A stretch of 64,000 bases of DNA from positions 509,538 to 573,537 of the forward strand of contig JBDRTY010000001.1 in NCBI GenBank assembly GCA_039801085.1. The letters run 5' to 3'. Positions 32,691 through 52,231 of the stretch are shown here, one piece after another. Each line of letters starts with the position of its first letter. Position 1 is the first letter of the stretch. Source of the stretch: a candidate division WOR-3 bacterium. GTDB taxonomy: Bacteria; Hydrothermota; Tepidihabitantia; Tepidihabitantales; Tepidihabitantaceae. Position numbers and translations under genes: made by a program. Below the pieces are notes generated by a model. That model saw only the letters and a program-made list of their open reading frames with translations. It did no database searches and was not told the DNA's origin.

Positions 32691-33941
32691 TTACTGCGTT
32701 CGACGCGCAGTCCGCCGTCCGTGAATATAAACGGGCGGCTTTTCCTTTTTGACTACTTCCGGGGTGATAATGCATTCAACGATGTTATGTCGTGCGGGCA
32801 GTTCAAACATGATTTCCAGCATTGTTTCCTCCAGTACCGCACGCAGGCCGCGCGCACCAGTCCGCAACTGCAATGCCCGTTCGGCAACTGCAGCTAATGC
32901 CTCGGGCGTAAATGTGAGTTTGATCCCTTCCCGTTCAAAATAATAGGCATACTGCTTTAGCAAGGCATTTTTAGGCTGAGTAAGGATGTCAATTAAAGCA
33001 GATTGCGAAAGGCTGTGAAGGGGCGCAATGACCGGCAGTCGGCCAACGAATTCGGGAATCATGCCATATTTGATCAAATCCTCCGGTTGGACGAGGCGGA
33101 GCAGTTCATCTTCATTCTGCAGATGTGGTTGTGTGATTTCGGCAGCAAAACCGATGGTCCCGGAACGGATGCGCCGTTCGATTATCTTTGTGAGCCCTTC
33201 AAATGTCCCCCCGCAGATGAACAGAATATTTCTGGTATTTACCGGCAGAAACGGCTGTTCCGGGTGTTTTCTGCCTCCTTGTGGAGGTACATTGGCGACA
33301 GTGCCTTCAAGTATTTTTAAAAGAGCCTGCTGAACTCCTTCGCCTGAAACATCTCTGGTGATCGAAGGGGATTCGGATTTGCGTCCGATTTTGTCAATTT
33401 CATCAATGTAAACGATGCCGATTTCCGCCAGCTGGATATTGCCGTCAGCTGCCTGGAGCAGTCGCAGCAGGATATTTTCAACATCTTCTCCAACATAGCC
33501 GGCTTCAGTTAACGGTGTGGCATCGGCGATTGCAAAAGGAACTTTGAGAAACCGGGCAAGCGTTTCCGCAATCAGTGTTTTGCCGACACCAGTAGGGCCG
33601 ATGAGTAGAATATTGCTTTTATCCAGCTGTGGTGCGGTCCGGGGAGCTGTGATCCGCTGGTAGTGGTTATAAACGGCTACCGAGATGACTTTCTTGGCGT
33701 ACTCTTGGCCGACGATGTATTCGTCGAGGAATGTTTTGATCTCCGGGGGTTTGGGGATTTCCCGCAGATATTCCACTGTCCGGTTCTGTTCCTCAAAGAG
33801 GGAATAAGCCAGCCGGGTACATTGCCGGCAGATTAAGCCGTTCCGGCCACGAACCAGCCGGTTGCTGGTGGTTTCCGGAGTACCACAAAACGAGCATATG
33901 TTATGCGGTCTGGGTCTGGGCTGAGAGTGGCGGGAACTCAT
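32691..33941 (-). CDS. clpX: ATP-dependent Clp protease ATP-binding subunit ClpX
   Basis: This AAA+ unfoldase feeds tagged substrates to ClpP. The 416-residue protein has the N-terminal zinc domain (CSFCGTPE, then CRQC), Walker [13 protein letters not shown], Walker [13 protein letters not shown], pore loop GYVGEDVE and the ClpP-binding loop in TIGFAAE. It overlaps clpP by 4 nt, and tig-clpP-clpX is the classical order. The hrb gene faces it with only 8 nt between stop codons. Confidence 0.97.
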
Positions 33942-46655: not shown

Positions 46656-46894
46656 ATAATGCACTGCCCGGACCAGCCTGTCCGCCAGCTGTCAAAGCGA
46701 GCGGAAATTTTATCCCTGCAGCCGCTCAATTTAACCGTCATACTCAATCATACTACCATCCATGCAATTACCCGGGGTGAACCCTATGCAGGGTTTAATT
46801 TTTAACAGGTTAGTATCTGACAGGAAATGATATATAATGCAATTGTTATAATCAATGTTTATGCATCAAAATACACAAATAAGCGGTTATCCTA
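46656..46894 (+). other. Intergenic stretch with a second weak hairpin
   Basis: No gene is seen. A short stem AACCCT-ATGC-AGGGTT (46780-46795) is followed by TAATTTTTAAC and could be a second terminator. The remainder is AT-rich and leads into the promoter at 46895. Confidence 0.45.
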
Positions 46895-46922
46895 TTGACA
46901 AAAACTGCCCGGTTCTTATAAT
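46895..46922 (+). promoter_or_regulatory. Consensus promoter of the secreted-protein pair
   Basis: TTGACA (46895-46900), a 16-bp spacer and TATAAT (46917-46922): both boxes match the sigma-70 consensus in full, the best promoter in the window. The start near 46929 leaves about 38 nt of leader with AAAGGAGG before ATG 46967. Confidence 0.8.
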
Positions 46923-46966
46923 ATATGCGCATCATCGCCGCCTCCATTTTAAGAAAGGAGGTTAAA

Positions 46967-48246
46967 ATGGCGAGGTTGATAAGATTTTTTATCCTGACAC
47001 TGGTGCTGGCAGAGATCGGTTCTGCCGGCTGGGAAAGGCGGGCGGACACGCCGCAGTGGCAGTATCCCGGTTCAGCGTTGGTTTTCGGAATTGAAAATCC
47101 CAAGACCATCTATGCCATCTTTGGCGGAACCAAAAAGCTGTATCGTTATCTTATTAATCTTGACCGATGGGATGATTCTCCGACTGATTTTCCCGGGGAT
47201 GTGAATTTTGGTCCAGGTGCAGCGCTTGCCTCGGACTTGAATGGCACCATCTATGTGCTCGTTGGGGGAGGAAGCAGTTCTGGCGTTACCGGATTTCAGA
47301 CAACAGCTGGCTGCGATATCCGGATATTCCGTTTCCGGTCAGTCAGGGCGGTTCGTTAGCATTTGCTATCGTTGACAATCTGTATTGGGTGTACGCGATA
47401 CCCGGGGACACTTTCCGGCGGATTTTCAAATACGGACCGCTTGCAGGCGGTGCGGGTGGTATTCAGCCGAATGATATTCCGCGCTGGCGCGAACTGTCCA
47501 CAAGTGATATGCCCCGCCCCGGACCCGGTTCCTGTATTTCATGGTATCATCTGCCGGCATTGCCTCAGCCGCTGGAATATATCCTGATGCTTCCCGGAAA
47601 TGGGAGTGATAAGATTCACTACGCTAATGTGCGTGATTCGATTCTGATATGGCTTCCCGGTGGAAGATTGACAGGCAACTCCGGTTATGGTGGTTCGATT
47701 TCAACTTTCAATATGCCGGGTGGCGCTTCTCATACCGCCTGTCTGCTTGGTGGCGGCGAGGATGACGCCTGCTGGGTATCACAGCCAATCACAGATCGTT
47801 TTGATCGTTATGGATCTACCCCTTATCCCCAGTATATTCAGACTGCCTGTGCTCATGGCAGAGATGGCTATGTCTACGCCTTTTTCGGCAGCACTAACCG
47901 TGCCTTCTACCGTGTTCCGATGTATGACGACCTTGAGAGTGGCGGGCAAGGTGCTGACAGGGTTGAATGCAGTTCAGCCCCGGACCTAAAAGTTTATCCG
48001 GAGCCGGCGGCGCACAATGTCAGGCTGGAGTTTATCAACGGGAAACCCGGAAGATGTGCGGTGACGATCTACGATATCGCCGGCAGGCGGGTGTGCACGC
48101 TGTGTGACCGGCTACTGAATGCAGGTGTCCATTCGGCGACCTGGGATTTGATCGATGGGCATGGGATGCGTTCAGTACCCGGAGTATATATTGTGCAGGT
48201 GCGCACTTCTGAAACGGTCGTGACCCGAAGGGTCACGGTCAGATAA
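46967..48246 (+). pseudogene. Secreted beta-propeller-like protein with sorting domain, frameshifted
   Basis: The N-terminal part (ATG 46967, AAAGGAGG site, signal peptide FFILTLVLAEIGSAG) reads through Kelch-like strands to about 47264, then leaves frame and stops at 47359. The frame one base back carries a smooth continuation (QFWRYRISDNSWLRYPDIPF) through to 48246. Adding one G to the GGGGG run at 47264-47268 would restore a single 426-residue protein. The C-terminus (VPGVYIVQVRTSE, then RRVTVR) is a type IX-type sorting domain. It may be a real decayed gene, a phase-variable one, or a sequencing error. Confidence 0.75.
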
Positions 48247-48265
48247 AAATGGAAAGGAGGCGGCG

Positions 48266-50841
48266 ATGATGCTGAAAAAATTGAGTGTCACCGGTATGGC
48301 AGTTATTCTACCCCTGATTACAACTGCCGGTGCGATTACTCTCGAGCGGGTGATTCCAGTTGCCGATACCGTATGTGGCGGAGCAACCGGTGGTGGAGCA
48401 CGGTATCTGGCGATTGACGGTTCAAAGCTCTACTATGTCGCCACTGAGGGTATGACACTGGTGCTTGATCTTGGCAGTTTTACGGTCAGGGGGAAATTCC
48501 GACGCTCGGCGAACACCCGGCAATTCCGGGGACGGACAAGCAGCAGCAACTGTTTGTGTCTAGGTATCACAAGTTGTATGTGGCAGGACGGGACAGCGGT
48601 CTGCCAATCATGACAATTGTCAGCACACTTACTGATTCCATAACTGCCCGTTACCCCGTTACCGACTTAATGTGTATGGCGTATAACGATTCCGAAGGGT
48701 GTGTTGTGATCACTGCCGAATCCTGCCGGTTGCGGGTTATTGACTGCCGGACCGACTCAGTGCGTGCCGTCATTACTACCGTTGACAGCTGTCTGCCTGA
48801 CTATGTTTTCTGGAATCACCATAATAACTGCTATTATGTGATTACAGGACATTACCAGCTTTATCCGGTGCTGGATACCTTTGCCTGGTGCACGGTGTTT
48901 GATAGCCGGACCAACACCGTTGTCGATACCTTCTGTCTCCAGCGGAGGTTTTACCGGGGGGTTCTGGTGCATCCGCACCGGAACAAGCTCTACTTCGGGT
49001 TGAATGATGAGGTGGCGGTGGTGGACGGTGACCAGAACCGGATCGTCAGATGGATTCCTTTTTTGGGAGGTCAGTTTGCGACCGACTCCGTGGGCAATAA
49101 ACTCTATCTGATTAATGCTGGTAGCATCGGAGTAGTTGATTGCAACCATGATACCCTGATAAAGGAGATATTCCTCGGCGGAGGCGGGTATCTTGAATTC
49201 TGTTGCATTCCGGAACTGGATCGGCTGGCTGTTATCTGCGACAACCTGCTTGCCGGCATTGACTGTGCGGGGGACTCTCTGGTGTTTGCCGATTCCACAT
49301 TCCGGGTTAATCCCTGGTATGCCGCTCTGACCTGGGATCCGGTGCGGGGGCAAATTCTTATCGGCAAGTATTATTTTTCTGAAGGAACGGCGCTCCTTTT
49401 GGCATATGATCCGGTCAGCTGGCAGGTGCGCAGGAAGCGGATGCTCGGTGTGGAGCGGATCTGGGATTTAGTTCATAACCGCCGTCAGAACCGGTTTTAT
49501 CTTTTGACCGAATCCCGAGATTCGTTTCAGCTTTGGGTGGTTGACGGAGAATCAGGTAATTATCTTCAGGCATTTACGCTCTGCCCCGCCCGCTGTGAAT
49601 ATGAAGTGAAGCTGTATCCCCATCCAGATGAAAGAAGGTTATACATTCCGGACCCGGAAGGGGGACGCATCAGGGTTTTTGACTGCGACCATGGGGCGAT
49701 AGTTTATGACATACCGGTTCGACTGATGCCTACATTGCTTACTTTTTTCAAAAACCGGATCTACTGCAGTCATACCGATTATCCCAACGGCTATCTGTCA
49801 ATCATTGATTCCGATGCGGATACGGTCATCAAGGTGCTGGACCTGCCGCTGGTCGGCACCAGTTTTGTCATTTTTTATCCCGAGGTTAATAAATATTATG
49901 TTCAGGGCTACTGGGACAACCGGATTGCGGTGATGGACCTTGCTACGGACGAACTGCAGAAGCTCATCCGTGGTATCCCGGCCGGGCAGGGGATTCTCTC
50001 ACCGGCGATAAGGATGCCGGCGGTCCGGGGGTTGTATGTCGTTTTTGCCAACATACTGCCCAATTCTCCCTTTCTGGTCAAGATTGATGTGACCACCGAT
50101 TCGATCGTGAAGGTGTATAGTGATCTAAATTACTATTACGCAACTTTTGGACTTGTAAACCACTTTTTCACTAATAAACTTTATCTTTGCGATATGATTA
50201 GACCTTATTATCCATTTGCGCATCTGATCGGTGTCTATGATGTTTTTCAGGACACGGTTGTCAATGAGGTGAGCACTCCGATTCCGGATACGGCGTGGAA
50301 GTGGTGGGGAATTAACGCAGATTATTATAATTATGCCAGCCATCCCAATCTGCCGTTTTTTTACGCCCACTATATCTGGGGGGTGGCAAAGGTTGACTGC
50401 GTTACCGATTCTGTTGTCAGCTTCCTCCGGTTGCGGGGACTGGGGGAAGATTGGCGGGTGATGAAACTGGATCCGGTTGACAACCGGATTTATCTGGTCG
50501 GCGACAGCCGGATATTTGTGCTCCGGGACGAAGGTCCGGGAGTCACATTCCCTCCGCCTGAAGCTCGAAGCCGGATACGGTTTGACTCTCCGACGGTGAT
50601 CAGGGACCGGTTGCTCGTCAGTCTGCAGGCGCCGGCAGCTTCGGAGGCGCAATTGAGCATGTTTGATGCCGGTGGCAGACTGCTCCGGCAATTGCAGACG
50701 GCAACCGGCAGGGAAGGCAGAGTGCGGCTTCAATGGGACGGGAGCGATGTTAAGGGGCATCAGACTGCAGCCGGGGTATATTTTGTTGTGCTGGAATCGG
50801 GTTCTGACCGTTACATGAAAAAGGTTGTCAGAATCAGGTAG
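48266..50841 (+). pseudogene. Secreted YVTN-type beta-propeller protein with sorting domain, frameshifted
   Basis: The gene starts at ATG 48266 (GGAAAGGAGG ahead, signal peptide with VILPLITTAGA) and leaves frame at a GGGGG run near 48491. The next frame continues at once (EIPTLGEHPAIPGTDKQQ) to 50841. One extra G would give an 858-residue protein. It has many repeats in which a short hydrophobic strand is followed by D(S/C)xxDSV or DGDxN, as in YVTN/NHL propellers (for example VIDCRTDSVRAVI and VVDCNHDTLIKEI). It ends in a sorting domain (AAGVYFVVLESGSDRYMKK). It has the same kind of break as the gene upstream. Confidence 0.75.
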
Positions 50842-50881
50842 CCCGGCATCAATTTCTGAAGTTTATTGATCTTGGGAGCGG

Positions 50882-52231
50882 TCATTCAATCCACTCCGCA
50901 TCGGGGAGGTTGAGCTGATCGCGGGTGATGTTGCCTAGGATGACCATCAGGTATCTGCCTGGAAAGAGTCGGTTGCGGGCAGCGGTGTTAATCTGTTCAA
51001 GCGTGGTGGTGCGGACCAGTTCCGGAAAGCGGGTGAACCAGTCCATGCCGTAGCCGTAGAGTTCAAAGCTGATCAGCTGGTCAAGCTTGCCGGAGTTGGC
51101 AGAGTAGGTGAGCGGAAATGAGCCGGTGAAGTAGTTTTTCGCCTTCTGCAGTTCCGGCGGGGTGGCACCGGTCCGGACCATCCGGTCAATTTCGGCAAAC
51201 ATCTTCTCAATTGCGGTCTGCGGTTTTGAGGTCTGGACCGTTGCCCGGAAGGCACCGGTCATGAGCCGGCGGTCAAACCAGCAGCGGACATCATAGGCAA
51301 GCCCGGCGTATTCCCGGACCGCCAGACCGAGCCGGGAGGAGAGTGGCGGACCGCCGAGGATGTAGGACATGAGCCGGACCGGAATCAGATCCGGATCGCG
51401 GACCGAGATGCCCGGATGGCCGAACTGAATATAGGTCTGGTTCATATCCGGCCGGGTAATCAGTTTGACGCGGAGTTTTTCCGGCGGTTTGAATGCAGGC
51501 GGTTCAGGAGCCGGCACCGTTTTGGACTGCCAGCTTCCGAACCGGCGGGTGATTTCCTCTTTCAGCTCTCTGGGGTTGATGTCACCGACCGCAACGATGA
51601 AGCAGTTGTTGGGCACGAAGTGGGTGGCGTGGAACTGGCGCAGGTCAGCAAGGGTGATTTGCGGAATGGTGCCGGTATCACCGCGGGCGGGCAGGCGGTA
51701 GCGGTGGTCACCGAAGAGCAGGCGGTCAAACTCCAGCGTTACCAGGGAGCCCGGATTGTCCCAGGCACGGCGGGCAGCGGTGAGCAGCTCCTCCCGGACG
51801 AGCCGGAACTCCGGTTCCGGAAATGCGGGGTTGAGGACGATATCGGCAAGGATGTCCAGTCCGGTTCCAAGGTCCTTGGACAGGAGCCGGAACTGGAGCC
51901 GGCTGTGGTCAAAATCGGCATCTGCCGAGTAGCTGGCACCAAGGAAGTCAAGCAGGGCGGTGAGCGAGTCGGCGGTAAGAGTTTTCGTGCCCCGCAGAAG
52001 CATCTGAGCGCAGAGGCTGGCGGTGCCCGCCTTCGGGAGCGGTTCAAACGTCGCACCGGAACGGCAGACCAGTGCCAGGTCCACGATCGGCAGGCGGTGG
52101 TCCTCAAAGGTGATGATTATCAGACCGTTGTTCAGTGATTCGCGCTCAACCGGCAGGGAGAGCAGAGGGGAAACTGCGGTTATGAGTCCGAGTAAAAGAA
52201 ACAGCAGGTGTGAGCGGAGAAACGGTTTCAT
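50882..52231 (-). CDS. M16 family peptidase, non-catalytic partner
   Basis: This 449-residue protein has a signal peptide (LLFLLLGLITAVSPLLSL) and two M16 half-domains. The zinc motif HxxEH is absent: the corresponding segment is KAGTASLCAQMLL. It keeps the C-terminal R/Y pair region (GGPPLSSRLGLAVREYAGLAYDV). In M16B peptidases the active subunit pairs with such an inactive one. The upstream gene, overlapping by 4 nt, is the active subunit, so the two should form a heterodimer in the periplasm or outside the cell. Confidence 0.9.
   Translation of the reverse strand: MKPFLRSHLLFLLLGLITAVSPLLSLPVERESLNNGLIIITFEDHRLPIVDLALVCRSGATFEPLPKAGTASLCAQMLLRGTKTLTADSLTALLDFLGASYSADADFDHSRLQFRLLSKDLGTGLDILADIVLNPAFPEPEFRLVREELLTAARRAWDNPGSLVTLEFDRLLFGDHRYRLPARGDTGTIPQITLADLRQFHATHFVPNNCFIVAVGDINPRELKEEITRRFGSWQSKTVPAPEPPAFKPPEKLRVKLITRPDMNQTYIQFGHPGISVRDPDLIPVRLMSYILGGPPLSSRLGLAVREYAGLAYDVRCWFDRRLMTGAFRATVQTSKPQTAIEKMFAEIDRMVRTGATPPELQKAKNYFTGSFPLTYSANSGKLDQLISFELYGYGMDWFTRFPELVRTTTLEQINTAARNRLFPGRYLMVILGNITRDQLNLPDAEWIE

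Follow-up and report, generated by a model that had tools for sequence, protein, structure and literature searches.

Two adjacent genes for secreted proteins in a candidate division WOR-3 bacterium each lose their reading frame at a run of five G residues. The genes, here called gene 1 and gene 2, lie in the window that we analysed, a stretch of 64,000 nucleotides (nt) at G000:C1:509538-573537, from a host genome of 1.91 Mb in seven contigs that is 96.8% complete. The explanation that we consider most likely, and hold with moderate confidence, is that slippage has recently inactivated both members of a variably kept two-gene surface cassette and that the damage has been tolerated. The case is a new instance of a known phenomenon, slippage frameshift in surface genes. 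If the slips are real, the gene pair documents, at the sequence level, that slippage affects type-IX surface proteins of a phylum without cultured members.

Four genomes are referred to throughout: that of the window (G000), a sister species that is the closest relative found (G001), a further genome compared with them (G002), and a genome from a different genus (G003).

The two interrupted genes

Gene 1 begins at an ATG (46967) located behind an AGGAGG-type site, and its first frame stops at 47357-47359; a second frame, which includes the sorting domain, is open up to 48246 (Table 1). Gene 2 reads from an ATG at 48266 to a stop at 48613, and its second frame, 761 amino acids (aa) from the first GTG (48556), is open up to 50841. 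A first-pass annotation of this DNA had claimed that both frames are lost at a five-G run, and this is borne out: there is an exact G5 at each position, and there are two open frames in each gene. Past the run, neither gene has any additional stop or shift in G000, and the frame stays open as far as the gene's end. Translation from either start codon would yield a shortened protein that lacks the sorting domain. In the 1280 nt of gene 1 the G5 is the sole G/C run of at least five. Gene 2 has eight such runs, comprising the lesion G5, two G6 and five more G5, and the other seven are all in frame. For lesions placed at random among the 199 genes compared below, the chance of two hitting neighbours is about 1%.

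Table 1. Positions of the features of the gene pair in the window, and of the poly-C leader copies found elsewhere
Feature	Position	Strand	Basis
Promoter-like TTGACA-N16-TATAAT, 5' of the gene pair	46895..46922	+	Sigma-70-type, 12/12 consensus matches; hexamers and spacer identical in sister alignment
Gene 1: secreted kelch-like protein with type A sorting domain of the type IX secretion system (T9SS), broken frame	46967..48246	+	Two open frames, TIGR04183, single-frame homologues
Gene 1 G5 run at frame loss; G7 in sister, in-frame length G6 in both	47264..47268	+	
Gene 1 segment of 83 codons, out of frame in both species	47275..47526	+	6/6 differences at codon position 3 of downstream frame
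Gene 1 C-terminal sorting domain (TIGR04183 / Por_Secre_tail)	47992..48243	+	Profile matches
Gene 2: secreted beta-propeller-like protein with FlgD_ig / sorting C-terminus, broken frame	48266..50841	+	
Gene 2 G5 run at frame loss; sister has AGTGGTGAAA, no run	48489..48493	+	
Gene 2 C-terminal sorting / FlgD_ig domain	50617..50829	+	Profile matches
Poly-C leader copies in G000	C6, tandem trio at ~1064, 3701 and 5547 of the stretch extracted from that contig, tracts C7, C8, C10; C3:144707, tract C7; C2:433426, tract C7		
Poly-C leader copies in G003 (another genus)	Two copies, tracts C9 and C10		

Protein identity and export

The C-terminus of gene 1 matches TIGR04183, the T9SS type A sorting domain, at 37.5 bits (cut-off 23). 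That of gene 2 matches the same family at 24.1 bits and FlgD_ig at 36.1 bits (cut-off 27). The first-pass annotation had expected the restored proteins to carry both a signal peptide and a sorting domain; the sorting domains are above the cut-off by these scores, and the signal peptides were judged by eye. Homologues of gene 1 with a single open frame are found on G001:C11 (458 aa) and G002:C16 (468 aa). We describe genes 1 and 2 as kelch-like and propeller-like because their homologues match the corresponding families: the G001:C11 homologue of gene 1 matches Kelch_3 at 23.4 bits (cut-off 22), and its gene 2 partner has YVTN repeats above the cut-off. The bodies of the window genes themselves gave no named family above cut-off.

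The genome also encodes T9SS machinery. SprA is found at 482.9 bits over its frame (cut-off 200), with no match in 14 control genomes, and two PorU-like proteins score 404.4 and 316.7 bits, below the family cut-off of 420. There are 93 matches to TIGR04183 at E ≤0.001. The sorting domains, taken together with SprA in the same genome, imply that genes 1 and 2 are probably type-IX cargo. They resemble T9SS type A cargo in having a C-terminal domain above the curated cut-off in each gene and SprA in the genome; they differ from it in their propeller-like bodies, which lie below the cut-off of every named family. The terms 'secretion system', 'type IX' and 'kelch' are absent from the main text of a WOR-3 genome survey (PMC12542636), as far as its accessible portion extends.

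Comparison with the sister species and with paralogues

The sister species is recorded as 'MAG: candidate division WOR-3 bacterium isolate SKW181', and a contig of this metagenome-assembled genome (MAG) is named NODE_1..._cov_26, which we take to mean a SPAdes assembly. A scan of contigs for further strains gave the sister and one weak Rhodococcus match, with records of the window's own genome possibly excluded from the scan. SKW181 and JAOABP were named in no paper in the one literature library searched, and the same search gave no paper naming WOR-3 together with phase variation.

Comparison with the sister, which the first-pass annotation had proposed, places a length difference at both runs. 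At gene 1 the window reads GTT-GGGGG-AGGAAGCAG and the sister GTT-GGGGGGG-ACGAAGCAG. With six G either species would be in frame; the window lacks one, and the sister has one in excess. Provided that the sister's G7 is correct, the tract would appear to have been altered in opposite directions in the two species. Sister gene 1 is also missing 461 bp between two copies of GCCCCGGACC (10-bp direct repeats), and because 461 is not a multiple of three it could not give the full product whatever its tract length. The situation at gene 2 is different. In the sister it is an intact open reading frame (ORF) of 858 aa, 94% identical, and the site that reads AGGGGGAAA in the window is there AGTGGTGAAA, in frame and run-free. 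Window and sister are separated at this site by one loss plus at least one substitution. Since gene 2 is intact and run-free in the sister, the lesions of the two genes differ in history, and the description of them as identical holds for the frame losses at G5 but not for their background, a G run being present in the sister at gene 1 and absent at gene 2. In the assemblies, tract length differs between relatives at gene 1 (G5 and G7), with the sister's run length made doubtful by its clpX, described below, and gene 2 has no sister tract.

The order gene 1 - gene 2 is repeated on G001:C11, G002:C16, G000:C2 and at the end of G001:C8. The paralogue of gene 1 on G000:C2, gene 1', is missing its N-terminal half, as judged by eye. 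In its orthologue, close to the end of G001:C8, the frame breaks at a G8 run, in codons homologous to the gene 1 tract, and the frame past the G8 is open to the sorting domain. A second run in gene 1' is G6 in G001 and G5 in G000, and in the G001 copy an internal deletion seems to be offset in frame by the one extra G of this second run. The whole gene 1 homologues on G001:C11 and G002:C16 have no run of five at the tract-homologous codons; the recurrent break point accompanies the presence of a G run. Of the gene 1-type copies examined, four of six are damaged (G000:C1, G001:C8, G000:C2 and the end of G001:C8), and the gene 2-type partners are whole in five of six. A 13-mer, GTCAGGGGGAAAT, is common to gene 2 and to gene 1' of G000:C2 and was considered as a trace of template switching; no wider similarity was seen by eye, and we attribute it to chance.

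Selection and age of the breaks

Selection continues to mark the frames behind both breaks. Over the 83 codons behind the gene 1 tract, every one of the six differences between the species falls at the third codon position, with a probability of 0.0014 if the positions were equal. The ratio of nonsynonymous to synonymous divergence (dN/dS) for gene 1 is 0.26 before the tract and 0.06 and 0.50 in two segments behind it, the segment nearest the end having the value of 0.50. Behind the tract there are 11 nonsynonymous changes, compared with 35 expected under neutrality by a Poisson estimate in which the uncertainty of the synonymous divergence (dS) is ignored. For gene 2 the ratio is 0.30 before the break and 0.29 after it, with about 48 nonsynonymous changes compared with 88-103 expected had the window lineage been neutral throughout. 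Six neighbour genes give ratios of 0.03-0.17. Because the downstream frames are under purifying selection, the breaks in genes 1 and 2 look young. The relaxed selection and further lesions expected of a pseudogene are not found in G000; in G001, gene 1 has a second lesion.

The gene pair is also unusually close to the sister. Its dS is 0.10 for gene 1 and 0.09 for gene 2, compared with a median of 0.259 over 175 ORFs. Ranked from the lowest dS, gene 1 is tenth and gene 2 ninth, and six of the eight lower ORFs, with dN/dS above 1, are unlikely to be genes, although these six were retained in the median. Across the window from ~46870 to 51450 synonymous divergence to the sister is about threefold lower than in the neighbours, and nucleotide identity drops on both sides, near 46.9 and 51.5 kb. 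The stretch with the gene pair may have a more recent common ancestor than its surroundings, probably by recombination; this is suggestive only, since two other gene-like ORFs have equally low dS.

Run lengths across the two assemblies

Are the two breaks part of a general fault in the assembly? Run lengths were taken from the assemblies and compared over 219 kb of collinear sequence of the 1.91-Mb genome. ORFs were called mechanically, and some of those in the run-position counts are not genes. In G000 there are 269 aligned G/C runs of at least five, with 256 of them inside ORFs of at least 110 aa. Only ten of the 269 have a length change within 8 nt. Five of the ten lie in ORFs of at least 110 aa with a change that is not a multiple of three, these being genes 1 and 2, clpX, a 117-aa ORF without a G001 partner, and a site near the end of a 183-aa ORF (184 aa in G001). 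The genes interrupted in G000 among all the aligned runs are genes 1 and 2 only. For G/C runs of 7-8, of which there are 18 in 400 kb of G000, 11 are at least 30 aa inside an ORF of at least 200 aa and three are nearer an end; with 14 of 18 in ORFs of this size, long runs are therefore mostly read unbroken. The systematic homopolymer error raised by the first-pass annotation finds no support for G000 and was rejected on the 219-kb comparison, in which genes 1 and 2 alone are interrupted in G000. Many other genes broken at G5 runs, which that annotation had named as a sign against real lesions, were not found in the 219 kb.

On the sister's side, 263 runs could be aligned, with a change of length in nine. 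Of its eight aligned runs of exactly seven, two change the frame, those of gene 1 and clpX, and both are one too long. The clpX gene (window 32691-33941; named from its Pfam domains) is whole in G000; in G001 it appears off by one at a G7/C7 run, which would separate the zinc-finger N-terminus. As clpX is a housekeeping gene, either the sister assembly overstates some run lengths by one, or these are real slips.

A tblastn screen for frame changes, in which 199 sister ORFs were compared with G000 and 201 G000 ORFs with G001, gave six and 11 frame-changing pairs, respectively. Apart from genes 1 and 2 and clpX, all pairs were excluded on inspection of their DNA, as shifts close to a start, extensions on the 5' side, ORFs of small size, or changes that do not involve a G/C run; not all of them were judged singly, and some may be real breaks. 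One excluded pair is a CN_hydrolase with its domain entirely in the downstream ORF, and another is a 334-aa ORF for which no Pfam family was matched.

Proposed recent slippage and its alternatives

Why should two neighbouring genes be broken in the same way? We suggest that the cassette encodes two secreted type-IX-type surface proteins, one kelch-like and the other beta-propeller-like, and that each gene has genuinely and recently lost a single base from a short G run, which would leave a truncated product from the start codon. The run in gene 1 would encode the Gly-Gly motif of a kelch-like repeat and would be a mutational hot spot, which DNA polymerase slippage may have shortened in the window and lengthened in the sister. 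In gene 2 the loss may either have given rise to the run, which the sister lacks, or have shortened it. Such slips would be tolerated or even briefly favoured because the genes of the cassette are variably maintained. The positions of the breaks, the opposing lesion in the sister assembly, the scarcity of comparable breaks, the selection on the frames behind them and the intact promoter are observed; that replication slippage was responsible, that truncated products result, and that the slips were tolerated and do not form a selected switch are our inferences.

The evidence for slippage comes from gene 1, where G5 and G7 lie on either side of the in-frame G6 at the gene's only G/C run of at least five, and where frame is lost at a G8 in the homologous codons of G001 gene 1', the two whole homologues being run-free there. 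The small number of interrupted genes in G000, the long runs that are mostly read unbroken, the dN/dS below 1 behind the tracts, the intact promoter and the further damage to sister gene 1 and to gene 1' of G000:C2 favour the same reading. Slippage is thus supported for gene 1; the lesion of gene 2, which differs from the sister by a substitution as well as a loss, is not a pure slip. Several points weigh against recent, tolerated slippage. Run lengths rest on assemblies, so that a single miscall is possible, and sister clpX likewise looks one too long at G7, so that the G7 of sister gene 1 may be an error. The gene 2 lesion is located off the longest G runs of that gene and needs a substitution plus a loss. 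Breaks in adjacent genes suggest a common cause, which is not fully explained by neutral tolerance. Finally, the last segment of gene 1, with its dN/dS of 0.50, is above the range of all six neighbours.

Single-base breaks in neighbouring genes of a MAG are not necessarily assembly noise, and we regard as unlikely the view that one or both G5 runs are assembly or sequencing errors and that both genes are intact in the cell. One missing G is the classic error and each run is known from one assembly, and the off-by-one runs of gene 1 and clpX in the sister imply that such runs occur either in assemblies or in nature. Against this, the two runs of one cassette are the only ones among the 269 to interrupt a gene in G000, the majority of the runs of 7-8 lie in long ORFs, the 461-bp deletion is a further lesion in sister gene 1, and an error at gene 2 would presumably need two adjacent T-to-G changes relative to the sister. 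Less probable again is old, irreversible decay of a useless operon, leaving plain pseudogenes. The frequent damage to gene 1-type copies, while most gene 2-type partners remain whole, would fit such decay; but genes 1 and 2 have gained no additional stops or shifts, selection is similar before and behind the breaks in gene 2 (for gene 1, 0.26 before against 0.06 and 0.50 behind), and the consensus promoter is intact. The linked decay suggested by the first-pass annotation therefore survives only in part: gene 1-type copies are often damaged, but selection still marks the downstream frames, and any decay is recent.

A possibility that deserves more weight, though we still think it improbable, is slow phase variation, in which the gene 1 tract is kept as a switch for a surface protein, both populations being OFF, and gene 2 is a younger switch or was silenced with it. 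This would account for the opposite changes at one gene 1 tract in two species, for the paralogue with a homologous G8 tract and a frame behind it open to the sorting domain, and for the selection seen on the downstream frame of a segment that neither species has in frame. The G13 tract that separates -35-like and -10 elements upstream of a G002 kelch-like protein, and the poly-C tracts in the leaders of another secreted family (both described below), point the same way, and the surface or secreted product expected of a phase-variable gene is indicated by the sorting domains and SprA, with signal peptides judged by eye. But a G5 is below the 7-nt minimum of a published screen (PMC3711429, as given in its accessible text), a length reached by the G7 and G8 of G001; the sister has no counterpart of the gene 2 run; at the homologous codons two whole gene 1 homologues lack a run of five; and sister gene 1, with its 461-bp deletion, cannot give the full product. 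For the first-pass suggestion of phase variation by G-tract slippage, then, the opposite changes at gene 1 count in favour and the short tract and run-free sister gene 2 count against. Recoding, in which slipping of RNA polymerase or of the ribosome on the G run would allow a full-length protein to be made from the shifted template, is the least credible of these alternatives, and we judge it very improbable. It would explain why the downstream frames are conserved despite being out of frame, and in the poly-C family six of seven tract-bearing copies are in the same off frame. A programmed frameshift, however, is recognised by a conserved site and direction, and here the direction is not conserved: gene 1 has a base too few in the window but one too many in the sister, and sister gene 2 is in frame, run-free and without a shift. 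A G5 is also short. Slippage during expression, as put forward by the first-pass annotation, is poorly supported because gene 1 would need opposite shifts in the two species.

Known systems offer partial parallels. In Listeria, the poly-A tract of inlA shows that homopolymer slips can be frequent and reversible (PMC2831843, in the part available). As proposed here, a homopolymer slip inactivates a surface protein, and the inlA frameshift has more than one independent origin and is reversible; the inlA tract differs in being poly-A and near the 5' end, whereas those of the window are G runs in an uncultured phylum. Genes that are phase-variable through poly-G tracts within the ORF, such as the meningococcal haemoglobin receptors, are alike in that G-tract length determines the reading frame of a surface protein and varies among relatives (PMC3786947, from the accessible portion of that paper). 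They differ in that the window tract is G5 (G7 and G8 in relatives), the gene 2 run is not conserved, and reversibility in the window genes is no more than a possibility. The GeneTack frameshift clusters (PMC3711429) similarly comprise frame transitions that recur at one place in a gene family, but that survey, in the text open to us, requires a repeat of 7 nt or longer close to the shift, and the window runs are of five.

Other G/C tracts in the lineage

Tracts of at least eight G/C were listed for G000, G001 and G002. Their use as a genome-wide sign of phase variation was rejected, since by eye most of the subset inspected are in frame inside long ORFs. On G000:C2, runs of 11 and 9 (340478-340488 and 345360-345368), which are long for G000, lie inside open frames of 381 and 684 codons. 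In G002:C60:1-200 a -35-like GTGACA and a TATAAT flank a G13, and a kelch-like protein whose C-terminus is of the sorting type follows about 90 nt further on (promoter and domains read by eye); the tract looks like a switchable promoter spacer.

It is a tentative proposal, and one that we think could well be wrong, that G/C tracts form a device shared within this WOR-3 lineage for the switching or recoding of secreted proteins, in the form of Gly-Gly G tracts, the G13 promoter spacer and C7-C10 leaders. The finding on the gene pair would be of more interest if this lineage-wide pattern held.

Five small secreted-protein genes in G000 have a near-identical leader (MNCKNTSLL...) with a C tract inside the presumed signal peptide. 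A scan for this leader gave 17 places in nine of 65 genomes, of which seven are tract-bearing, one is cut by a contig end and nine are tract-free. None of the seven tract-bearing copies has its leader in frame with the mature part, and in six of them the offset has the same direction; the seven are not independent, several of the leaders being recent duplicates. Between two off-frame copies dN/dS is 0.11, with synonymous sites near saturation. It is 0.10 between one of these and a leader-less G001 relative, and 0.09 between that relative and the other off-frame copy. For more distant pairs the ratio is about 0.2-0.7, or saturation is reached. By these ratios the closest pairs are under purifying selection. 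The poly-C leader family thus represents either phase variation caught in the OFF state or recoding at the C tract, for which switching and recoding predict different, testable outcomes, and it is a stronger case than that of genes 1 and 2 in the same genome.

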